Assembly: GCA_001542995.1 (NCBI GenBank)
Contig: LFLA01000013.1
Location: 1 to 64,000, forward strand
Length of the DNA: 64,000 bases
Direction: 5' to 3'
DNA from: Nitrospina sp. LS_NOB
GTDB taxonomy: Bacteria; Nitrospinota; Nitrospinia; Nitrospinales; VA-1
Numbering within the stretch: the first letter of the stretch is position 1; every line of letters starts with the position of its first letter. A program made the position numbers and the translations under genes. The notes beneath the pieces were generated by a model. The model was not told where the DNA came from and made no database searches. It saw only the letters and a list, made by a program, of their open reading frames with translations. Below are positions 20,741 through 64,000 of the stretch, in pieces.

Positions 20741-20975
20741 TTAAACCCACAAATCAGGATTGGCAAGCCCTTTGGCAGGGAGACCTTGTTTGATCATAAA
20801 GCCTTGTGCTTCAAACCAGGTATTTAACGATGACAACAACCTTGCGTAACGATCTCCCAGTTGCCATCGAAACCGGCTGACCGTCAAATGATCGGGAACC
20901 GCATCCGACAGGCTCAAGCCCACAAAACGGCGAAAGCTGATCCGGTCCGACAACGCTTCTTCCATGCCAGGATGA
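20741..20975 (-). pseudogene. N-terminal remnant of an IS5-type transposase
   Basis: About 75 residues matching only the N-terminal DNA-binding part (DUF772-type) of IS5-family transposases: HPGMEEALSDRISFRRFVGL, VPDHLTVSRFRWQL and LNTWFEAQGFMIKQG. The DDE catalytic domain is absent, with a stop codon at 20741. Upstream of codon His (~20975) the reading frame enters family C repeat DNA, so both ends are broken. No terminal inverted repeats were found. It is a dead fragment and shows past IS activity at this spot. Confidence 0.7.
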
Positions 20976-21340
20976 GAGCTTTGCATAAGTCGATAAAGCA
21001 GAAAAGCGAGATTCTTCACTGCGTTCAGAATGACGATACAAGGCTATTTTGTCATTCTGAGGAACAAGGTGACGAAGAATCTCAGGTTATGCAAAGCTCT
21101 TTCTCAAAGAGGAACCTTTGCGCAAGTCGAAAAACCGGAAAAGCGAGATTCTTCACTACGTTCAGAATGACAATGCAATCTCATTCAGAATGACAACAGC
21201 GGGATTCTTCACTGCGTTCAGAATGACAATACTGGGCTATTTTGTCATTCTGAGGAACAAGGTGACGAAGACGTGATATTTTTCCTTAAACTTCGTGCCC
21301 CGCAGGGGTAATCTCGACTTATGCAAAGCTCTCATCTGTT
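20976..21340. repeat. Dispersed repeat cluster (families B and C)
   Basis: Contains repeated GAGCTTTGCATAAGTCG, GCGAGATTCTTCACTGCG and TTCAGAATGAC units, at least five copies in a row, and a family B palindrome near 21300 (GTGCCCCGCAGGGGTAATC). It replaces the 5' part of the IS5 transposase on the left and forms the C-terminal codons of a DUF4124 gene on the right. Confidence 0.8.
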
Positions 21341-21557
21341 TGGGGAAGGCTCTGCTTTTCAACAGGGGCAGGGGGGGAGGAGCTATAAATTCTTTAGAGG
21401 TTTCCACATCGATATTTTTTGTTTTGGGCACCTTGGTGGGGTCATTGGTAAAATGGGGTTTACCATTCTCATCTTTCCACTTGTAGATTGTGGCGTGGGC
21501 AGTCGTGCTGGCAAACACCCAACAAAATGCCAATCCAACTATTAGGAAAGCCCTCAT
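21237..21557 (-). CDS. DUF4124 protein with repeat-derived C-terminus
   Basis: A 106-residue version starting at ATG 21557, giving MRAFLIVGLAFCWVFASTTA as a signal peptide and then the DUF4124 core ATIYKWKDENGKPHFTND, PTKVPKTKNIDVET. A longer frame reaches 21635, but those residues precede the signal peptide. After PLPLLKSRAFPK the sequence changes to residues encoded by repeat families B and C (MRALHKSR... to the end), so the original C-terminus has been lost. Close relative of the gene just upstream (21670-22332), with which it shares YKWKDENGK and PTKVP. Probably a truncated envelope protein; function unknown. Confidence 0.55.
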   Translation of the reverse strand: MRAFLIVGLAFCWVFASTTAHATIYKWKDENGKPHFTNDPTKVPKTKNIDVETSKEFIAPPPLPLLKSRAFPKQMRALHKSRLPLRGTKFKEKYHVFVTLFLRMTK

Positions 21558-21669
21558 TGATCTGGCGACACCTGTTTCAGAAAAGATCATGAACACACTC
21601 ACCCCCTGCATAAACCTGATTATGGTTCCGCTCATCCTAATTTTATCAAAAGAAAAGACTTGGGAATTA

Positions 21670-22332
21670 TTATTTGGTGCCGAGAGCAGTGGTCAGTTTT
21701 TCCAGAAGCAGTTTTTCCGTCTCGGCTTCACCCTTCAACCGGCTTATCAGCGTCTGGGTTTGGCGAGTCGAAGTAATGGTGGTCGGCATGACTTTCTGGG
21801 ATTTTTCATCTGCAGCAATGCTCGGTTCCAGGAACCCGGCAATTGCCTTGAGTTCGGGAACATCGTGTTGGCTCACTTGTCCTAAAAGTCCCTGCTTTTC
21901 GGCAGTCGCACTGGCCATGGTCTGCTTTATCATACGAAACTTACTCCGGCTGGGCGGATAGGTATAAAGTTTCTCGTATCGGGGGATATCCGCTCTTAGA
22001 AAATTTATCGCGGCTACAACGGCAGAACGCTGTGCCTCCGTTAGACCTTCCTCCTCGCCTTCTTTTGCTTCATTTTCGACAGGGTCTTTTTTCTCGGAGG
22101 TCTCATCTCCCTCACCCTGACCCCCTTTTTCTTTAGACTTTGGAGTTTCTTTTCGGGATGTACTACCTTTTACAAAAGGGTTTTTACGAAATGCTTCCGG
22201 AACTTTGGTGGGGTCATCGGTAAAATGGGTTTTTCCGTTTTCATCTTTCCACTTGTAAATGGCGGCATCCGCATCGACAATCCATAGCAATGCAAAAAAA
22301 ACCAACACCGATATTGTTTGTCTGGCTGACAT
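21670..22332 (-). CDS. DUF4124-domain envelope protein
   Basis: 220 residues. A signal peptide (SVLVFFALLWIVDADA) is followed by the DUF4124 segment AIYKWKDENGKTHFTDD and PTKVPEAF, an acidic/basic low-complexity stretch (EKKDPVENEAKEGEEEG) and a helical C-terminal half (RSAVVAAINFLRADIPRYEK and RQTQTLISRLKGEAETEK). The function of DUF4124 is unknown; the domain is common on secreted or periplasmic proteins. The start codon lies 82 bp from the aroB stop codon, so it may be transcribed with the pil-aroB operon. The adjacent 21237 gene appears to be a truncated paralogue. Confidence 0.65.
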   Translation of the reverse strand: MSARQTISVLVFFALLWIVDADAAIYKWKDENGKTHFTDDPTKVPEAFRKNPFVKGSTSRKETPKSKEKGGQGEGDETSEKKDPVENEAKEGEEEGLTEAQRSAVVAAINFLRADIPRYEKLYTYPPSRSKFRMIKQTMASATAEKQGLLGQVSQHDVPELKAIAGFLEPSIAADEKSQKVMPTTITSTRQTQTLISRLKGEAETEKLLLEKLTTALGTK

Positions 22333-23567: not shown

Positions 23568-25520
23568 TCAATTTGTTTCAATTATGGTGGGAGTGATAAA
23601 CACCAGTAGCTCCGTAATCGTATCGGAATCAGCATAGCTTTGGAACAACAAGCCTAAAAGTGGTATTTTAGATAAAAACGGAACTGCCTTTTTGTTTTCA
23701 GTTGAAGCGCTTTCATAAATTCCGCCTAAAACGGTAGTCTCTCCATTCCCCACTAAAACTTCCGTATGCGTTTCCCTAGCGGTAATAGTCGGTACGCCAG
23801 CTCCAGCGGTCTGTGAAAAGTCTGCGGCATTTTTGGTCGCATCAATAATCATATAAACCTTATTGTCGGAGGTGACATGAGGCGTGACAGTCAAACTGAG
23901 ATTGGCATCAACAAACTGGATCGAGTTGCCCTCTGCCGAGGTAACCTGATAAGGAATTTGCTGTCCGCTACTTATTCTGGCTTCTTTATTGTCCGCAGTC
24001 GTGACTCTGGGACTGGAGAGAACCCGCCCTTTACCCTCGGTCTCCAGAGCTTCCAGCCGGATATCCAAATTCAATCCATGCCCTAAAATGCCTCCGAAGG
24101 TCAAGTCAACCCCGCCCACTCTTCCTGCTGCTATATTCGAAGTTTGTGTTAAATCCACCAGAAAGTTCTGACCACTGGTAGCAGTATTCGCAGTATTTGT
24201 ACCATTAATGACTGTGCTGCCACCACTCACAGTACCATTCACACCCCATTGAACTCCCAATTCCTGGATATATGATTTACTGATCTCCACAATCTTCGCC
24301 TCAATCAAAACCTGGGCTGTGGGAATATCCAAAACACTTATAGTCTCCAGCATGTCATCCACATGCTTTCGGAGATCATTTAAAATGAGTGTGTTGGTGC
24401 GGCTGTCCACGGTGATTTTAGCGTCCCCACGGGTGCTCTTTAAAGCGGTGAGACTTGCCGAAAGTTCGGAAATATCTGCATAGTCAATGCGAACCACCTC
24501 GGTGGCCAGATCCGCTCCAGCCAGTTCTGCGGCCTTCTCTGCTACCACGCGGGCTTTTTCAGCAACTCGGGCACTATCCTCAGCCGCAAGAATCTTTTTG
24601 CTTGCAACACGAACAATATTGCTTCCGAAACATTCCCGTCCCAAACTGCTGTTAGAAAGAATGATTTCCATCGCCTCGTTCCAGGGCACATCCATCATTC
24701 TAATACTTACGAAACTCTCCTCTTCTTTAACGGAACCCCCCACTTCAGGAGAAAGAATGACATTGAACCCACTGATCTCCGCAAAAATTCTAAAAAGGTG
24801 GCGGACATCGGCGTTTTGAAAGTCCAGAGAAATCTCTTCCTTCTTTCCGTAGAGCATAGGACGACACGTATCTTCAGCAGCATCCACCTTTTTATCCCTG
24901 GTGGACGCCGTCTCATTACCAGGCCTGTTAGCAGTCCCATTGGACGAAGACTGGGCCATTTGCTGACCCGATGCCTGCTCTGAGGATTGCAAGCGAACGA
25001 TTAATTTATTTTTCCCCGATTTTTTAATTTCATAGTCCGCCGATTGGTTGAGAACGATTTCCAGACGCAATACGCCTGCCTCTTTAAAATGAATGGGGCG
25101 GATGGAATTTACGATCCCCTTATCAACCTGAATACGACTGGTCAGGTTTCCTTGATCCATTTCCGGGAAATCCAAAATCAGCCGGAACGGATTCAAAAGT
25201 TTAAACGCAGTATATTGAACGGGGCGTGTGGACTCGATGGAAACAATAGCACTTCGCCCGTCTTCTTTTGTGTCGATAAAAACAATTTGCCCTAAAGGCC
25301 CATTCATTGAACTTCCGCTCTGGTTTTGAGCTAATACCATTAATGGCACCGCATTTTTTCCATCCTGGTCAATACCCGGCTCTTGAAGTAACGCGGACTC
25401 CAACTGATGGTCCCCAGGCAGCACTGCGGAATATGCGGGTACCACCGGCCAACCAACTAAAAATAGCAAAAGAAAAGTTATCTTTAAGTAACAAGGTTTT
25501 TTGAGCATTTGTTCTCTCAT
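23568..25520 (-). CDS. pilQ: Type IV pilus secretin PilQ
   Basis: 650 residues. After a signal peptide (ITFLLLFLVGWPVVPAYS) comes an AMIN domain at ~90-175 that binds peptidoglycan. An STN/N0-type domain follows (DVRHLFRIFAEISGFNVILS, then MMDVPWNEAMEIIL), then an N1 (NolW-like) domain (VVRIDYADISELSASLTALK). The secretin channel region carries LSSPRVTTADNKEARISSGQ and the C-terminal ITELLVFITPTII. It forms the outer-membrane pore for the pilus. Only one AMIN domain is seen; many PilQ have two or three. It lies downstream of pilMNOP in order. The start could also be the second Met, four codons in. Confidence 0.96.
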   Translation of the reverse strand: MREQMLKKPCYLKITFLLLFLVGWPVVPAYSAVLPGDHQLESALLQEPGIDQDGKNAVPLMVLAQNQSGSSMNGPLGQIVFIDTKEDGRSAIVSIESTRPVQYTAFKLLNPFRLILDFPEMDQGNLTSRIQVDKGIVNSIRPIHFKEAGVLRLEIVLNQSADYEIKKSGKNKLIVRLQSSEQASGQQMAQSSSNGTANRPGNETASTRDKKVDAAEDTCRPMLYGKKEEISLDFQNADVRHLFRIFAEISGFNVILSPEVGGSVKEEESFVSIRMMDVPWNEAMEIILSNSSLGRECFGSNIVRVASKKILAAEDSARVAEKARVVAEKAAELAGADLATEVVRIDYADISELSASLTALKSTRGDAKITVDSRTNTLILNDLRKHVDDMLETISVLDIPTAQVLIEAKIVEISKSYIQELGVQWGVNGTVSGGSTVINGTNTANTATSGQNFLVDLTQTSNIAAGRVGGVDLTFGGILGHGLNLDIRLEALETEGKGRVLSSPRVTTADNKEARISSGQQIPYQVTSAEGNSIQFVDANLSLTVTPHVTSDNKVYMIIDATKNAADFSQTAGAGVPTITARETHTEVLVGNGETTVLGGIYESASTENKKAVPFLSKIPLLGLLFQSYADSDTITELLVFITPTIIETN

Positions 25521-25539: not shown

Positions 25540-27009
25540 TTAAGATGGGCCCTGGTTAAATTGGATAATTTTCTGGTTTGTCAGGATATTACCGAGATAA
25601 TCCCTGAACTCTTCGACCACAATTACCTGGCCATCCAGCACTTCTTCCACATATCCGAAAGAAGGACCAACCCGGTCTCCTTTTCTCACCGCATATCCGG
25701 TTGTGCCAATCTCAAACATAGCCACCGCTTCCAATTTTTTCAGGATAACTCCTGTCATTCGAAGGGAGTCATATTCAACCTGCAGGGGTGACAACTCCAT
25801 TTGGATATCAGCAGACCTCTCCAGAACATTGCGATAATCTTTTACGAAATCGGCATATTCCTCATCTCCAAGCTCTTCCAATTCTTCCCGGTTATTGAAC
25901 AAGTGCCCAAAATGCTTCAATTTCTTATAGAGTTCCGGATACTGATCTTCAATTTTCACAAATACCAACAAGGCAAGTGGCGGAATATCTCCAAGCTCAT
26001 CCCCGAACAAGCGAGCCATCTTTCGCTCTGATTCGGAGAAATCAACCAGTCCGCCCTTGTTGACCAGAGGTCGGAAAGGGTCGCGCCTTCCAATCAGCAG
26101 GTACCTTTGTCCCGGCGGGGCCAGGTCCATTAACAAAGGATAATCGGGTCCGCCAGAATCGATTTCCTTTAACAACTCAACCTGAATGAGGTCTGCCTGA
26201 TAGGCTGTTTCTTTAATTCCATTCTTTAAACCCTTCAACGTTGTCTGGCTGAACCATTGACCAGCTTGGGAGCCTAAAAATTTGGCGTATTTTCCAAGGT
26301 CTTTATTCTTAACACCCCGGTAACTGAAGAGCAGGCTGCGCAAAACAACTTCCCGTATGGGCTCGGTAATACTTTCCTCTAAAGCTCTCAACATTTTGCG
26401 GAGCCTTCTCGCATCAATTTTTTTATTAAAGGGATACATCAATTTGACATATCCCAGAAAGAGTGTTTTCCCAGCCTCCGTCCTGTAGGCCGAACTCTCA
26501 ATCCTCTCTACCAGGCTTATTCGCTCTTCACTGGGGGGCGCCTTCAATAACTTTTTCGTGAACAATTCCATCGCCAGCTTATTGTCGGGATGACCCGCTT
26601 CATTTTCAAGTCTCCGTATTTTTTCCCCCAATGTGCTTCGATGCCATTGAACCGCCGATCGAATATGTTGAGGTTTATAGTCTTCAATAAAGGGTCGCCT
26701 CAGAGCACGGTAAAACTTTCCTGGCAAATAGGCCTGGCGCATGATTCTTTTGGCAAATTCATCCTGACCCGGTGCCAAAGCATCCTCATCAATATTCCCT
26801 GACATTTCCACAACAGATTCGATGTTCCCCAAAACATCATTAAGCCCACTGAGTCTGAATAGGATATTAAGTTTGTAGTTCCGGGAACGCAGGTCTTCCT
26901 GAACAGAAGGAGTCGCCGTAGCAGCCAAAAGAGGCTGGACCCCTGTTAGGGCTATCCACAGGAAAAATAAAATTTTCATATAAGACTGGATTCTCATCTT
27001 AGACATCAT
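25540..27009 (-). CDS. pilP: PilP-domain protein with large N-terminal extension and insertion
   Basis: 489 residues, more than twice normal PilP (~180). A signal sequence (KILFFLWIALTGVQPLLA) replaces the usual lipobox, since no cysteine follows. Residues ~35-290 are an all-helical region with no clear family; segments such as GKFYRALRRPFIEDYKPQHI have a repeat-like character faintly resembling DUF2059. The PilP hallmark DPFRP is at 310-314, but the beta domain with MTGVILKKLEAVAMFEIGTT, VRKGDRVG and VEEVLDGQVIVVEEF does not begin until ~407, after an ~85-residue insertion. Position between pilO and pilQ confirms the PilP role: linking the inner-membrane PilNO ring to PilQ. Several Met codons (1, 2, 5, 11) are possible starts. 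Confidence 0.85.
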   Translation of the reverse strand: MMSKMRIQSYMKILFFLWIALTGVQPLLAATATPSVQEDLRSRNYKLNILFRLSGLNDVLGNIESVVEMSGNIDEDALAPGQDEFAKRIMRQAYLPGKFYRALRRPFIEDYKPQHIRSAVQWHRSTLGEKIRRLENEAGHPDNKLAMELFTKKLLKAPPSEERISLVERIESSAYRTEAGKTLFLGYVKLMYPFNKKIDARRLRKMLRALEESITEPIREVVLRSLLFSYRGVKNKDLGKYAKFLGSQAGQWFSQTTLKGLKNGIKETAYQADLIQVELLKEIDSGGPDYPLLMDLAPPGQRYLLIGRRDPFRPLVNKGGLVDFSESERKMARLFGDELGDIPPLALLVFVKIEDQYPELYKKLKHFGHLFNNREELEELGDEEYADFVKDYRNVLERSADIQMELSPLQVEYDSLRMTGVILKKLEAVAMFEIGTTGYAVRKGDRVGPSFGYVEEVLDGQVIVVEEFRDYLGNILTNQKIIQFNQGPS

Positions 27010-27020
27010 CCCCTAAAAAC

Positions 27021-27710
27021 TTAATGACCACCCTTCTTTTTCTTCTTCTTTGCCGGCTTAGAGTTAGCTGGTGCCTTTTTTTTCATTCCGCGATTTTCAG
27101 CGCCTTCTAGAAACGAGTAGGTCCTTGCCGTTAAAGTGGTATTCAGTGAGCCCGCGATAGCTCCGCCCCCATCCCCAACTTTAGAAGCGGGAGCCTTCTG
27201 GCCCTGCAATGTCAGGTTTTCAAAGCTCACCAGACGCAAAAGATTCTGCACATATTCAATGAAATCGAGCGTGACCCATAGTTCCCCGGTGAGCCGGATT
27301 TTAAAGGGAATCTCTTTATAAAAATCCCCAATTTCACCTTCCTCCATAGTGAACGCAGTCATTTTGATGTTCCTATGCTTGCCAAACGCCATTAATCTTT
27401 GCATCAAATTGGGAATTTCATCCTGGCTGGGCATTTGATTTTTAAACGCATCGAATTTGCCCTTAACACGGGCCATATTTTTTGCCACCAGGCCTTCCTT
27501 TGCCACGACAGCCTTATATTCCTTAAGGGTTCTCTCCGCTCCTGCTTTCTGCTTGGTCAACTGTTCAAATTCTTTATTGGTGGCACTGTACAAAGTGAAA
27601 TAATAGGCAAGGAACAACACCAAACCAACACCTATTGCTCCTGCCAGCAAATGGGTCGCCTTGATCCCCTCAAGATTATCGTAGGGTAATTTGTCGAAAA
27701 GTTTTTCCAT
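27021..27710 (-). CDS. pilO: Type IV pilus inner-membrane protein PilO
   Basis: 229 residues: one membrane helix (THLLAGAIGVGLVLFLAYYF, ~21-40), a periplasmic coiled coil (KEFEQLTKQKAGAERTLKEY) and a ferredoxin-like domain with MPSQDEIPNLMQRL, VTLDFIEYVQNLLRLVSFEN. The C-terminal tail is lysine-rich (KPAKKKKKKGGH). With PilN it forms the alignment complex between PilM in the cytoplasm and PilP/PilQ in the periplasm. It is 12 bp from pilN and 11 bp from pilP, consistent with a single operon. Confidence 0.93.
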   Translation of the reverse strand: MEKLFDKLPYDNLEGIKATHLLAGAIGVGLVLFLAYYFTLYSATNKEFEQLTKQKAGAERTLKEYKAVVAKEGLVAKNMARVKGKFDAFKNQMPSQDEIPNLMQRLMAFGKHRNIKMTAFTMEEGEIGDFYKEIPFKIRLTGELWVTLDFIEYVQNLLRLVSFENLTLQGQKAPASKVGDGGGAIAGSLNTTLTARTYSFLEGAENRGMKKKAPANSKPAKKKKKKGGH

Positions 27711-27722
27711 AGTCGTTATAAA

Positions 27723-28382
27723 TTAAGCCGCTTTCTTCTTTTCCGGCATATAGCAATAAATAGTAAATTTATAAATCGCCTGATCCCCAATAATTGACTG
27801 CACTGATTTATGAAGGAACGTTGTTTCATAATAAGAAATTTTCTGTAGGCTTTGCATGTATTGCACCACTTCCTTTTCAGTTAAGGCATAGCCCACAACC
27901 TCTACAAACTCTTTTTTGGGTTTTACTTTTTTCTTCCCTCTTCTCTTTCTCTTCTTCTTCTTAGCCGGGTCATCAAAAAAGATGACGGGAACACTCTTTG
28001 ATCGAAGTTCACCCGAATCCCTTTGTATGATGGAGGTCAACCAAAGGCCGTCAGGAATTGCCATATTCAAATCGCTGACAATGGTGCCCACAGGCATTTG
28101 CTTTTCTCTCAAACCTTCAATCCCCTTAATAATAGTCTCCATGCGATTTTGCTTGGCCTCCATGGCACGGACCTTTTTAACTTGATTTTGTAAAGCCGCG
28201 ACCTGAGATTTCACTTTGCTTGTCTCATTTCTCATCGAATCCAGGCGAACCTGCTCCATCAACCAACTCACGATGATTAAAAGAATCGCGGTTATGATAA
28301 TCGCGATACATTTGACCACCCGTTTTTGGATCTCAATCTTTCTCAGCTCATATCGATAATCATGGAGATTGATTCGAATCAT
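27723..28382 (-). CDS. pilN: Type IV pilus assembly protein PilN
   Basis: 219 residues. The short cytoplasmic N-terminus MIRINLHDYRYELRK is the conserved PilM-binding motif (family form INLLPYR). It is followed by a membrane helix (~25-43), a coiled coil (SKVKSQVAALQNQVKKVRAM) and a periplasmic domain with LNMAIPDGLWLTSI. A basic KKKRKRRGKKKVKPKK insertion in the periplasmic part is unusual. The start codon overlaps the pilM stop by 4 bp (ATGA-type overlap), indicating translational coupling. Confidence 0.93.
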   Translation of the reverse strand: MIRINLHDYRYELRKIEIQKRVVKCIAIIITAILLIIVSWLMEQVRLDSMRNETSKVKSQVAALQNQVKKVRAMEAKQNRMETIIKGIEGLREKQMPVGTIVSDLNMAIPDGLWLTSIIQRDSGELRSKSVPVIFFDDPAKKKKRKRRGKKKVKPKKEFVEVVGYALTEKEVVQYMQSLQKISYYETTFLHKSVQSIIGDQAIYKFTIYCYMPEKKKAA

Positions 28383-29533
28383 GTATAGTCAAACCTCCTT
28401 GTGGCCAAACCCAGGGCAACCGTGGACAACCCGCTCATTTCATCGACTAATGATTGGTCAAAGTCTTTGGGATTAATTTTGATCCCCTGCATGGGATCCA
28501 GAACCTCTACGGGCACCTTTAAATAGTCGGCAAAAAAGCCATCCAACCCTCGAATCATGCTTCCCCCTCCGCATAACAAAACTCTCTCAATCTGGTGATT
28601 GGACAGGGTGCCAAAATATTCGAAAGATTTTTGCACCTCATCTAAAACTTTCTTATAGGCTTGGACAATGGTTTTGATGACCTCCTCTTCCTCAACCTCC
28701 GAAGAAAACTTGCCTCGCTTTATGTCAAGAACCTGTTTAAAAGGAACCCGGAATTTTGACATGAGCATACTGGTCAAATACCCTCCTCCAATAGGAATAT
28801 CCCGGGTATAACCCATTGCTCCGTCCTGAATAATATTGATATGGGTGAAGGAATCCCCAAAATCAATCAGCGCGATAGTGCCCATTGAGGACAAATCATT
28901 GGTCAACCGTGCCGCGTTCATCAAGGCAAACACATCCAGATCAATGATGGCTGTTTTCAAACCCGCCTCCAGAAGAATATCCGTCCTCTCATCAATGACA
29001 TCTTTTTGAACCGCCACCAGAAGGGCTTCCATCATTTCCCCGCCCGCCTCCTCATTGGAGTCTTCTTTTTCCTCATCATTGTCCTGAGATTCCCCATTAA
29101 ATCCAGATTCTTCCGAACCTTCGTATTCCTCTTCCTTATCAACAGTTACTGTGCCCAATATCTGGAAGTCGAGTGCCACATCGTCAATATCGAATGGAAT
29201 ATATTGCTCCGCTTCCTGGGTTATTTTTGCGGAAAGCTCCTCTTCCGACATTACCGGAACTTTTATTTTCTTTATGAAAACCGCTTCTCCAGCAACCGCA
29301 GAAACGGCATAATGGCTTTGAATTTTTTCGGCTTTGATTAAATTTGTCAGGGCCTCTGCTACCAACTCGGGTTTTTTAACCGCCCCCTCAACAACACATT
29401 CCTCCGCCAATGGCATCATTCCAAAATGGGTCAACTCATACTGCCCTTCCTTGAACTCCGTCAACTGAACCAGCTTGATGGAAGAAGACCCAATGTCGAT
29501 GGCCACTAATGGACTTTTTTTCGATAAGAACAT
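28379..29533 (-). CDS. pilM: Type IV pilus actin-like protein PilM
   Basis: 384 residues of the FtsA/actin fold. Phosphate 1 motif VAIDIGSSSIKLVQL, SAVAGEAVFIKKIKVPVMSE, the second phosphate loop ALIDFGDSFTHINII and the adenosine-binding LLCGGGSMIRGLDGFF are all in place. The SHS2-like part carries an acidic, asparagine-rich insertion of ~40 residues (residues ~128-168, EEYEGSEESGFNGESQDNDE) that is not seen in typical PilM. The cytoplasmic PilM ring binds the PilN tail and the assembly ATPases. First gene of the pilM-N-O-P-Q-aroB operon. Confidence 0.95.
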   Translation of the reverse strand: MFLSKKSPLVAIDIGSSSIKLVQLTEFKEGQYELTHFGMMPLAEECVVEGAVKKPELVAEALTNLIKAEKIQSHYAVSAVAGEAVFIKKIKVPVMSEEELSAKITQEAEQYIPFDIDDVALDFQILGTVTVDKEEEYEGSEESGFNGESQDNDEEKEDSNEEAGGEMMEALLVAVQKDVIDERTDILLEAGLKTAIIDLDVFALMNAARLTNDLSSMGTIALIDFGDSFTHINIIQDGAMGYTRDIPIGGGYLTSMLMSKFRVPFKQVLDIKRGKFSSEVEEEEVIKTIVQAYKKVLDEVQKSFEYFGTLSNHQIERVLLCGGGSMIRGLDGFFADYLKVPVEVLDPMQGIKINPKDFDQSLVDEMSGLSTVALGLATRRFDYT

Positions 29534-60390: not shown

Positions 60391-60653
60391 ACCGGACTGG
60401 TGAATGAACTAACTGCAAAAATCTCTATTTATTCGGTAATTTTCTCTAAGGCAACTCGCAGACCCTTATTTCATAATGGCTGCTCATGGCCAAAAACAAT
60501 ATCTTAAGATACCCTATATTACAACAAATCAGAAGGTCCGTAACGAGACATTCATAACCTGGACCATCAGGCCGGGGACAATTCTCCAGTTCATCGTCAA
60601 ACTTTTATCTGAATGATCACTTTGATGACACAACAGTAAAATTAATTAAAAAA

Positions 60654-60715
60654 TGGTGCCGAAGAGAAGACTCGAACTTCCACACCCTTTCGGGCACATG
60701 AGTTGGGATCATGTG
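60654..60715 (-). tRNA. Partial, tRNA-Leu-like 3' portion (probable att remnant)
   Basis: Minus strand. From 60681 down to 60654 the sequence gives a good T-arm (GGAAG-TTCGAGT-CTTCT), acceptor strand CTTCGGC, discriminator A and encoded CCA, as in tRNA-Leu. The long variable arm TGCCCGAAAGGGTGT precedes it. An anticodon-arm-like stem CACATGA-TCCCAAC-TCATGTG (60695-60715) comes before that, but position 33 is not U and no Leu anticodon is in place. The D-arm and 5' acceptor strand GCCGAAG are missing. It is therefore a fragment or chimera, not a working tRNA. It marks the border of AT-rich DNA to the right. Confidence 0.6.
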
Positions 60716-60746
60716 CGGGAGGGATTACTTTGGCAAAGAAAGGCAG

Positions 60747-60827
60747 CTATCGGCCAATTTTTTTTGAGACAGTCATAACACCCCTCTTCAACGCCAACTC
60801 ATAAAACACGCCAGCCTCTTGTATCAA
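60747..60827 (-). CDS. Tiny overlapping ORF 3, 26 residues
   Basis: Starts with TTG overlapping the TGA stop of the previous tiny ORF and has GGAGG directly upstream. The peptide includes GVFYELALKRGVMTVSKKIG. No homology is claimed. Support is the ribosome-binding site, the stop/start overlap and the position in a run of three such ORFs. Confidence 0.3.
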   Translation of the reverse strand: MIQEAGVFYELALKRGVMTVSKKIGR

Positions 60828-60904
60828 CCTCCCATAATTTTATAAAGAAGATAAATGCCAAGCGCGACTATTAGAAGAATTTTTTTATTTTTGTCTATAT
60901 TCAT
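60824..60904 (-). CDS. Tiny hydrophobic ORF 2, 26-residue membrane peptide
   Basis: A 26-residue peptide: a basic N-terminus MNIDKNKK followed by one membrane segment ILLIVALGIYLLYKIMGG. AGAGGA lies ten bases before the ATG. The ORF overlaps tiny ORF 1 by 20 bp in another frame. Size and layout (a short leader ORF overlapping a single-helix peptide) resemble type I toxin genes such as hok with its mok leader, or small phage membrane proteins. This is inference; no antisense RNA was identified. Confidence 0.4.
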   Translation of the reverse strand: MNIDKNKKILLIVALGIYLLYKIMGG

Positions 60905-60935
60905 TATTCAATGTTCCTCTAGTTTTTTTATCCAT
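60885..60935 (-). CDS. Tiny ORF 1, 16-residue leader peptide
   Basis: MDKKTRGTLNNEYRQK with a perfect GGAGG seven bases before the ATG. Strongly basic and polar. Its stop codon lies inside tiny ORF 2, so its translation could open or couple to that ORF. Confidence 0.35.
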   Translation of the reverse strand: MDKKTRGTLNNEYRQK

Positions 60936-60949
60936 GTTTTCCTCCCTCG

Positions 60950-60978
60950 ATGATACCGAATGGTCATACCTGCCTCAA
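60950..60978 (-). promoter_or_regulatory. Sigma-70-like promoter before the tiny ORFs
   Basis: TTGAGG (-35) and TATCAT (-10) with a 17-nt spacer on the minus strand. The expected start site falls at about the GGAGG of tiny ORF 1, which is closer than usual, so either the leader is very short or the match is fortuitous. Confidence 0.35.
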
Positions 60979-60983
60979 TCATC

Positions 60984-61019
60984 AAATAAAAAACCGGGAG
61001 CCCCGTAAAGAGCCCCGGT
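60984..61019 (-). terminator. Rho-independent terminator (minus strand)
   Basis: ACCGGG (61014-61019 region) pairs with CCCGGT (60993-60998) around a GC-rich loop GCTCTTTACGGGGCT, followed by TTTTTTATTT. It would stop transcripts coming from the right and insulates the tiny ORFs. No convincing gene was found that it serves. Confidence 0.7.
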
Positions 61020-61464
61020 CATTATAACCCACCCCAAAAACTGGTTTACACAGATGGGACCAATATCCGCTTTGGGTCGATACCGCACACATGAGTTGGG
61101 ATCATGTAACGACACGATTGTTAATTTCTAAGGAGTTCACTGGTCGGTAATAATGGGCTTCGTGATATTACCAACATTAAACTTCGTGCCCCGAAGGGGT
61201 AGAACTCGCGGCCGTTGGAGTTGGGATCCAGTGGTTGCTACAGCTGGGATGCAACAAATAGCCGATCATTGTTTCTTTTGAAGTTAGAACAACTATCTTT
61301 TACCCAAAAGCCCTTCCCTAATAGCTGCGTGGAAATCCATTTTACACCAATATTTATATGATTTGGATTTCGGATAATTTTTTTATTTTTTAAGTGCATA
61401 TGTTATAACCAACCTTAATGGCTGGTAAATCAACCTAATTTATTAAGTTTTTTGATTTAAAATT
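61020..61464. other. Island-edge intergenic region
   Basis: 445 bp with no firm gene. It holds a second copy of the anticodon-arm-like sequence (CACATGAGTTGGGATCATGT, 61089-61108), a shorter one (GAGTTGGGATCCA near 61218), and a family B palindrome (CCCCGAAGGGG near 61190). The part after 61260 is AT-rich and leads to the methyltransferase gene. A 36-codon minus-strand ORF ending inside the terminator is not credible. Confidence 0.5.
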
Positions 61465-63615
61465 ATGCTAGCAAAAACTAAGCGAACAAAATTTCCTTCC
61501 AAATCCCCCATTCCCAAAAAAACGGCCATTGAATTAGATATGCCTGTGGAATTTATGCATGGTTTGGCTATTAGAGAAGGAAATAGCAAGAAACCGGTTT
61601 ACGAATTGCATAAATGGTGGGCAAGAAGACTTGGTACCTGTTTTCGAATGCTCTTACTTGGAGCGACTACGAGTTCAAGAAAAAGACACATTTTATTTAA
61701 CGGGGCATTTTTTAAAGCACACAGTCTTGAGAATTTAGTAGTTTTAGACCCATTTATGGGAGGGGGAACTTCTGTAGTTGAATCTACTAAGTTTGGAGCA
61801 AAAGTAATTGGGGTAGATATTGATCCTGTTGCATGCTTAATTGCAAAAAAAGAAATTGAAGCAATTAATGAAAGTGACCTTTTAATAGCATTTGAGAAAA
61901 TTGAAGATAAGTGTGCCAAGAAAATTAAGGATCGGTATACCACACGTTTGCCAAATGGTACTAGTGCAATAATAGTTAATGCATTTTGGGTTGATATTTT
62001 AACTTGCTTGGAATGCAAATCAATTGTTGATGGTCACCCTCATTTTCGGCTTTCTTCTGACAAAAACAATTTCCACCAAACAGTTTTTTGTGAGTCCTGT
62101 GGTCAAATTACAAATACCCACTTAAATTATAAATCATTTACTTGTAAAAATTGCAATTTCAGAACCAATATTGATAAGGGTCCTACTTCTTTGGGTATTT
62201 TAAATTGCAGTGTTTGTAAAACTACTACTCCAATTCTTAAAATGGTCAAAAAAGGGAAACCCTTGTCGCGCAAACTTTTTGCAATGGAAGTACTTATTGA
62301 TGGACAACGTAGGACTACTTTTATAAAAGCAAGAAAAGCTGATATTACTCTATATAAAAAGTCTCAAGGAGAATTTAAAAAAAACAGGGCAAAACTTATT
62401 TTTCCAAAAGTAAAAATCCCCTTAGAAGGAAGAAGTGATAGCCGTCCAATTAATCATGGATTTGAAACGTATGCAAGTTTATTCAATGATCGCCAATTGC
62501 TCTGTTTAAGCGAGATAGGCAAGGAAATTGCTAAAATAAAAAATAAAAAAATAAAAGAATTTATTGCTATCGCCTTTTCTGATTGTTTGGCTTCAAATAA
62601 TATGCTTTGTGCTTACGCTTTTGGTTATAAAAAGCTTACACCTTTATTTGGATTACACGGATTTAGAAAAATTGTACGACCTGTTGAAAACAATGTATGG
62701 GGAACTGAATTTGGAAGAGGTTCTTTTATTAAATGTTTTCGGAAATTGTTGAGAGCGAAAAAATATTCAAAGCGTCCATATGAATTTAATTATTCCAATG
62801 GAATGCCTAAGCCTATATATACTGGAGAGACTGCTGAATCAAGAATTGCCACACGGTTTCCGCTACTGTTTTCTAAGCCAGGTCCTTCTACGTTTATTTT
62901 AAACTCTTCATCTGAAAATTTGAGAAAGATTCCAAATAAATCTGTGGACTTAATTTTAACAGATCCTCCTTATTTCGATAACATTCATTACTCAGAAATG
63001 TCCGATTTTTACCATGTATGGCTCAGAAAAATTTTAGGACCATCTTACGTTGGTTTCAAAAATAATCACACACCTTTTGTTGATTCACTTTTTCCCACTA
63101 AATATTTAGATAGTAGTGTTGTAAGTAGTGCACAGGGTTTTCGGAAAAAGATTTTTCAAATTTTTGGTGAGTGCCGTAGAGTAATAAAGCCAAATGGACT
63201 GTTAATTTTTACTCATCACCATAGAAGTTTAATTGCATGGCAAAATCTTGCTGTCGCCGTATTGCTTAATCGATTTTCTGTGAAAAATGTATTTCCTGTC
63301 CGGTCAGAGGGGCGAGGCGGATTTCATAATTCAGAAGGGAATTTACGGTGGGATGCGGTGGTTGTTGCTAGGCCAATAAAGAAACTCGAAAATAAAAATC
63401 CTAGCCTGAAGATTATAGGAAAGCGTGTTTTAAATCAGTTGGAATATTGGAAAAAACGTCTTGAATTATCGAATATCTCGTTGTCGGATTCGGATTCAAT
63501 TAGTATGAGAAGAGCTTTTCTTCTTAAAGAATTTAGTGACTTTAAAGTAAATGAATCTGATTTAATGAAAATGATGGCCGATGTAGATCTTGTTCATACA
63601 TTGCCTAATAAGTAA
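61465..63615 (+). CDS. DUF1156-type DNA methyltransferase with zinc knuckles
   Basis: 716 residues. The N-terminus holds YELHKWWARRLG (47-58), the hallmark of DUF1156 methylases. SAM motif I is LDPFMGGGTSVVE (94-106) and the catalytic motif DPPYFDNIHYSEM (500-512), so amino-methylation of adenine (or cytosine N4) is expected. Between them, residues ~178-260, lie four C-x2-C pairs (CLEC, CESC, CKNC, CSVC), likely two zinc ribbons. Base composition is markedly AT-rich with AAA, ATT and TTA codons, unlike the rest of the window. DUF1156 methylases occur in defence islands with helicases and DUF499 ATPases. No ribosome-binding site is evident at the ATG. Confidence 0.85.
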   Translation: MLAKTKRTKFPSKSPIPKKTAIELDMPVEFMHGLAIREGNSKKPVYELHKWWARRLGTCFRMLLLGATTSSRKRHILFNGAFFKAHSLENLVVLDPFMGGGTSVVESTKFGAKVIGVDIDPVACLIAKKEIEAINESDLLIAFEKIEDKCAKKIKDRYTTRLPNGTSAIIVNAFWVDILTCLECKSIVDGHPHFRLSSDKNNFHQTVFCESCGQITNTHLNYKSFTCKNCNFRTNIDKGPTSLGILNCSVCKTTTPILKMVKKGKPLSRKLFAMEVLIDGQRRTTFIKARKADITLYKKSQGEFKKNRAKLIFPKVKIPLEGRSDSRPINHGFETYASLFNDRQLLCLSEIGKEIAKIKNKKIKEFIAIAFSDCLASNNMLCAYAFGYKKLTPLFGLHGFRKIVRPVENNVWGTEFGRGSFIKCFRKLLRAKKYSKRPYEFNYSNGMPKPIYTGETAESRIATRFPLLFSKPGPSTFILNSSSENLRKIPNKSVDLILTDPPYFDNIHYSEMSDFYHVWLRKILGPSYVGFKNNHTPFVDSLFPTKYLDSSVVSSAQGFRKKIFQIFGECRRVIKPNGLLIFTHHHRSLIAWQNLAVAVLLNRFSVKNVFPVRSEGRGGFHNSEGNLRWDAVVVARPIKKLENKNPSLKIIGKRVLNQLEYWKKRLELSNISLSDSDSISMRRAFLLKEFSDFKVNESDLMKMMADVDLVHTLPNK

Positions 63616-63696
63616 TTTGTTTGCATTAGCTTGAATAAAATATGTTCCCAAATATTATCTCATTTTAGGAACCCATGTAGTTAGGAGAAAATCAAT

Positions 63697-64000
63697 ATGC
63701 CTTCTAACATTCCGTACGATAGAGCGCGATACAAAATTATTAAAAAGCTCCAGTCCGCCCAAAGGGAAGACAGTAACGAAACCCTGCCTACAGCAAAACT
63801 CATTTTAAAAGGAAAAGCGGAGATAATGGATATATACCGTTTTTCAACACAAGATCTGCTTTTTAATAAAGCAAATGGGCGTTTGGCATCTGAGGTTATA
63901 GCTTGGGAAAATGAAGAGGGCCATATACTTGATCCTCTTAATATTGATGATCAAGCAGTTCTTAGAGAACTATTGCTATCTCTTAGTCCAGACGTAAATA
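63697..64000 (+). CDS. Start of an unidentified island gene (cut by window end)
   Basis: ATG 63697 with AGGAGA eight bases upstream; open for 101 codons to the window edge. The peptide starts MPSNIPYDRARYKIIKKLQS and includes IYRFSTQDLLFNKANGRLAS and LDPLNIDDQAVLRELLLSLS. The element LxFNxxNGR is reminiscent of proteins with a ParB-like or DNA-modification-linked N-terminus, but no family can be named. It follows the methyltransferase by 81 bp on the same strand and shares its AT-rich style, so the two probably form one operon of the island. Confidence 0.75.
   Translation, partial: MPSNIPYDRARYKIIKKLQSAQREDSNETLPTAKLILKGKAEIMDIYRFSTQDLLFNKANGRLASEVIAWENEEGHILDPLNIDDQAVLRELLLSLSPDVN

Follow-up and report, generated by a model that had tools for sequence, protein, structure and literature searches.

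We have analyzed a window of 64,000 nt (positions 1-64,000 of contig LFLA01000013.1) from Nitrospina sp. LS_NOB, whose pilP gene, at 25540-27009 on the minus strand, codes for an enlarged version of the pilus protein PilP. The usual picture of this protein is that of a small link joining the pilus platform to the channel in the outer membrane. Here the PilP part is accompanied by an N-terminal tandem of DUF2059-like repeats and by a helical spacer. Both the identity of the protein as PilP and this composition are near certain, and the gene is, judging from its relatives, a conserved architectural variant and not an artefact. The host genome (2.65 Mb, 98.8% complete) groups with the Nitrospinaceae, in the Nitrospinota.

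The gene is a single uninterrupted open reading frame (ORF) of 489 codons that lies between pilO and pilQ in a pilM-N-O-P-Q operon, all on the minus strand (Pfam matches to PilM_2, PilN, PilO, PilP and AMIN/Secretin). The other members are pilM (28379-29533), pilN (27723-28382), pilO (27021-27710) and pilQ (23568-25520), a secretin with AMIN, N0, Secretin_N and Secretin domains that would be the partner of the PilP HR domain. Genes pilM and pilN overlap by 4 bases, while 11 bases separate pilO from pilP and 19 separate pilP from pilQ. The start of pilP is more likely at 26997 (M5, giving 485 residues) than at the first ATG, because an AGGGG abuts the latter; orthologues such as L003 and L005 start in the alignment at the residue matching M5. 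The Pfam PilP match of the window protein covers only residues 413-479 (expectation value, E, 5.9e-5), and PilP was matched in all of the 20 orthologues scanned (E up to 10).

The comparison ranged over 77 Nitrospinota genomes. We use G codes for genomes and f and g codes for families and genera; the order, made up of marine nitrite-oxidizer relatives, comprises f1-f4. Matches to PilP were found in 43 of 60 genomes searched, the window's own included, and a PilP-domain match in 55 of the 77, all exceeding the Pfam cut-off with the exception of the window genome (54/55). Our PilP table has 54 rows, 53 from these 55 genomes plus the named contig L061; we left out G067 and also G006, which has just part of a chimera, at the edge of a contig. 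A region homologous to residues 38-292 is present in 26 of 28 f1 rows, 10/10 of f2 and 5/5 of f4. It was found neither in the single f3 row nor in any of the 10 rows from f5, f7, f8 and f9. Genus g7 accounts for both f1 rows that lack it (G062, 250 residues; G064, 245 residues). Seventeen relatives on named contigs, all of them metagenome-assembled genomes (16 labelled Nitrospina, Nitrospinaceae or Nitrospinota and one Nitrospirae), gave a fused ORF of 488-545 residues between pilO and pilQ. A preliminary description of the gene had envisaged that two genes might have been joined by sequencing error. With the same fused frame in 17/17 named contigs and the extra region in 41 of 44 order rows (one, G019, truncated by the contig end), we exclude such an error of sequencing or assembly, for which nothing spoke and whose probability is negligible; even orthologues as low as about 25% in overall identity retain both repeats and the conserved residues.

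In the midpoint-rooted PilQ tree, where f3 is a long branch, families f1, f2 and f4 are set apart by a branch (99/97) that leaves f3 out. This tree fits a single gain of the DUF2059 part after the split of f3, which would have been followed by a loss in g7. Five genomes of the window's own family (G005, G018, G021, G022 and G023, 91-97% complete) had no match to PilP and none to PilO, so the pilus seems to have been lost in places within the family.

The layout of the protein could be followed along its length (all coordinates on the minus strand). A signal-like sequence at 26914-26997 (residues about 5-32), with a probable signal peptidase I site, precedes two runs of six helices, repeat 1 (26590-26892, residues about 40-140) and repeat 2 (26155-26529, residues about 161-285). 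Then comes the segment PPGQRY..RDPFRPL (26065-26118, residues 298-315), in which R309-D310-P311-F312 is invariant in 20/20 aligned sequences and which would be the docking site for PilN and PilO. It is followed by the helical spacer (25795-26013, residues about 333-405) and the HR beta domain, the PilP core (25552-25791, residues 407-486). The AlphaFold model of the whole protein reached a predicted local distance difference test (pLDDT) score of 80.8 and a predicted TM-score (pTM) of 0.61. In the VIA comparison its residues at about 404-485 matched Pseudomonas PilP 2y4y_B with Z 12.1 (root-mean-square deviation 2.3, 75 residues aligned), followed by 2y4x_A (Z 10.8), Neisseria PilP 2ivw (Z 9.6) and the HR domain of GspC, 3oss_C (Z 8.6). 

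Compared to its relatives outside the order, the protein has grown at two places. The DPF motif stands at residue 310, versus 56 (f7) or 70-99 (three f9 rows) in non-fused PilPs of the phylum, and therefore about 210-255 extra residues lie ahead of it. The second addition, with modelled helices at 347-400, is between the DPF segment and the HR domain. The distance between them is 97 residues in the window protein, 97-119 in f1, f2, f3 and f4 and 96-99 in f5 and f8, against 27 in f7 and 41-45 in f9 (the classical rows), a net gain of about 50-70. The spacer is older than the DUF2059 fusion, because the long distance is found also in f3, f5 and f8. The preliminary description was right on the length, 489 residues against a typical ~180 (PilP chains in the PDB have 172 and 181), and on the existence of both additions, of which it put the first at ~270 residues; its ~85 residues for the second were too high. 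Its split PilP core was not borne out, since the addition is located in the linker and the HR domain is continuous in the model and in the VIA match. The missing lipobox that it reported was confirmed with a PS00013-type pattern. This absence is not specific to the enlarged form, because only 2 of the 54 PilP rows of the phylum have one. The non-fused PilPs of f7, f8 and f9 (169-223 residues) also lack it, and we have rejected a lipobox loss tied to the added domain.

Like type IVa PilP (PF04351; Pseudomonas 2y4x/2y4y, Neisseria 2ivw, Myxococcus 3jc8), the window protein has its place in the operon, the DPF segment and the HR fold (Z 9.6-12.1); unlike it (about 170-180 residues), it carries the DUF2059-like tandem and the spacer and has no lipobox. 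The HR fold is also shared with the type II secretion protein GspC, which likewise is a larger bridge protein of several domains; the extra domains of the window PilP are N-terminal and DUF2059-like.

The preliminary description had taken the N-terminal part for a new helical domain. Actually, the added domain is not new in itself but DUF2059-like. The family (PF09832) gave matches, at E up to 10, in 17 of the 20 orthologues. Among 10 scanned singly, 6 exceeded its cut-off, and L029 did as well. Most of these matches fall at about residues 102-150, in repeat 1; those of L029 and L045 fall at 241-262, in repeat 2. Modelled alone from 18 sequences, the N-terminal part gave a pLDDT of 90.6 and a pTM of 0.87, with the two six-helix runs. 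Its top VIA match was 6f03 (BPSL2520), with Z 4.7 over 99 residues and Z 3.5 for the next row; with the full-length model 6f03 aligned to residues 39-163 (Z 3.6). BPSL2520 is listed as a DUF2059 protein in PMC7549894. As a profile control, we compared the repeats with each other and with 10 standalone DUF2059 proteins against 100 column shuffles. None of the 100 shuffles was as good as repeat 1 versus the standalone proteins, and one was as good as repeat 1 versus repeat 2. The DUF2059-like nature of repeat 1 is well supported and that of repeat 2, for which the evidence is weaker, moderately so.

The search with PF09832 matched 52 of the 77 genomes, the match lying in a standalone gene, in a PilP frame or in both kinds; the 13 genomes of f5-f9 gave no match. 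Most genomes of the order have a small standalone DUF2059 gene (about 170-215 residues), with a signal-like N-terminus in those that were read. DUF2059 proteins and the PilP N-terminus are linked by the profile matches in orthologues and by the weak fold match to the solved 6f03; these proteins are usually small and standalone, while in PilP the domain is doubled and fused. The standalone gene had no conserved neighborhood across the five loci listed, two loci of the same genus sharing neighbors, and a sequence search of the PDB with the standalone protein gave nothing credible.

We have also compared the partner proteins. The operon PilO scored 124-149 bits with Pfam in all 10 genomes of f5, f7, f8 and f9 having PilP and 50-84 bits in the order. 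For PilN the values were 46-77 bits in those four families and, in the order, at most about 44 or below threshold. Apart from g7 (122-126 bits), PilM showed no comparable drop; its Pfam match in g1 and g6 is split in two by an acidic insert. PilN and PilO drop and PilM mostly does not, hence the three periplasmic alignment proteins were altered on one branch. This apparent co-change of PilN, PilO and PilP on the branch of the order is a correlation only. The preliminary description had suggested that the bridge between inner membrane and periplasm may be built differently. This has indirect support: the enlarged form is kept across the order, and the PilN and PilO scores go down on the same branch. 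A rebuilt bridge has therefore partial support. We observed besides a Lys/Arg-rich stretch in the window PilN.

We propose that the enlarged PilP would be exported and not lipidated. Its DPF segment would dock on the PilN/PilO dimer, like the N-terminal linker of Pseudomonas PilP; PMC5805733 describes binding of PilN/PilO heterodimers by the unstructured N-terminal region of PilP. The HR domain would dock on the N0 domain of PilQ as in Neisseria; PMC3441751 describes the C-terminal domain of PilP binding PilQ N0 in the way that GspC HR binds GspD. The spacer may lengthen or stiffen the stretch between the two contacts. The tandem, which would lie on that side of the DPF segment which faces the membrane, could be an accessory collar around PilN/PilO that helps to hold PilP in place without a lipid anchor. 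We consider the DUF2059 part accessory because the lineages without it keep an ordinary operon. Taken jointly, a PilP with a DUF2059-like tandem and these spacer and collar roles have in our opinion about an even chance of being correct; the collar and the docking are predictions, the models being of single chains. Several observations weigh against this proposal. The window protein stays below the Pfam PilP cut-off (23.5 versus 25.6 bits) and was itself not matched by DUF2059 (E up to 10). The fold match to DUF2059 is weak (Z 4.7), Foldseek with the N-terminal part returned nothing significant, and repeat 2 versus the standalone proteins was not significant (35 of 100 shuffles as good). The drop of PilO is already present in f3 (G038, 76 bits), without DUF2059, and f3 and g7 lack the tandem, which indicates that it is not required for the basic function of PilP.

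The chief rival to the collar is an envelope tether, the tandem binding peptidoglycan, lipid or another envelope protein and so fixing the pilus machine. We regard it as possible, if rather doubtful. A PilP without lipid anchor would suit it, as would the signal-like N-terminus of the standalone DUF2059 proteins and the use of the PilP N-terminus for unrelated domains in the phylum, but the non-fused PilPs of f7, f8 and f9 do without a lipobox just the same and we have found no known ligand of DUF2059. That the tandem is dispensable in g7 and absent from f3, with a PilQ tree consistent with a single gain, would also be expected of a regulatory or chaperone-like assembly domain, or of a passenger of low effect retained by descent after one fusion. 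We think this unlikely, given that both repeats and the conserved residues persist over such divergence.

Chimeras of PilQ and PilP were found in relatives. In 9 of the 77 genomes (8 complete genes and the partial one of G006), a separate gene codes for N-terminal domains of PilQ type followed by the PilP spacer and HR domain, without the secretin pore domain (L031:5963-7549, L032:4332-5978, L041:5882-7528, L033:6803-8329, L036:1204-2508, L037:4688-6133, L038:4282-5709 and L039:3432-4757). AMIN, N0 and N1 are common to these chimeras and to PilQ, in which the pore domain stands in place of the spacer-HR module; the PilQ-type part consists of N0 domains or of AMIN-N0-N1. The g3 chimera, between pilP and pilQ, has a single N0; for L031, AMIN and Secretin_N are shown as well. 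That of f3, in the same place, is N0-N0-spacer-HR, and so is that of g1, located away from the operon. The window's own genome has no chimera. Of the 10 candidate rows scanned, by count 3 matched Secretin and the remaining 7 PilP. We dropped from the candidates L042, L044 and L047, the second secretin-like ORFs of G037, G040 and G050, since they align as full secretins; in these three f2 genomes (g10), pilP is followed by a tandem pair of complete secretin-like genes (L042:6506-9926, L044:5898-9295, L047:4566-7956).

In trees of the spacer-HR module (62 and 52 rows, with the 8 chimeras and without G006) the chimeras are found at three separate positions. A constraint keeping all 8 in one group, by architecture, was rejected (approximately unbiased test, p-AU 1.3e-5), as was one keeping g1 with g3 (p-AU 0.0032), a grouping picked after seeing the first tree. 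The N0 tree, on only 88 columns and with starred branches that force only two changes, placed the g1 chimera domains with the PilQ of g1 and g6 (99/95) and those of f3 near the f3 PilQ. The simple reading would be three independent N0-HR fusions, with the f3 rows being long branches; the alternative would be gene conversion at each of the two ends. We see in this repeated chimera the most novel lead of the analysis. Tentatively, and with more doubt than conviction, the PilP-PilQ joint of Nitrospinota may be a modular, extendable stack, which received the spacer and then the DUF2059 tandem, and in which at least three lineages independently made pore-less adaptors from their own PilQ N0 and their own PilP spacer-HR. 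Such adaptors could put one more tier between the platform in the inner membrane and the secretin. The N0 of the chimera could bind the HR of PilP, and its HR the N0 of PilQ.

Other fusions affect PilP itself. The f5 PilPs have a long N-terminal region (L035:5925-8528, 867 residues; L034:5456-8128, 890 residues), with a DUF3352 match in L035 (1.3e-9) and none reported for L034. Two f9 genomes (L072:796-1938, L077:722-1831) have a lipobox and an unnamed domain of about 200 residues ahead of PilP. On the sequence data, the N-terminus of PilP serves in this phylum as a fusion slot, bearing three unrelated domains across its branches, and a docking domain has been recombined with the docking domain of its partner. 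These fusions are natural experiments on what determines how long and how strong the trans-periplasmic bridge is. They also provide a defined cellular setting for DUF2059, on which hardly any literature exists. In titles and openings of abstracts, with subscription journals mostly uncovered, we found neither a PilP-DUF2059 nor a PilQ-PilP fusion described.

Elsewhere in the window, 20971-21336 is an interspersed repeat whose direct copies reach 94% identity, with a perfect inverted repeat of 23 nt around 320 nt; it adjoins two similar small genes at 21237-21635 and 21670-22332. The end of the window (60400-64000), where G+C goes down to 0.34 in the last 2 kb, is possibly an island. A 716-residue ORF at 61465-63615 resembles by eye a DNA methyltransferase (DPPY motif).
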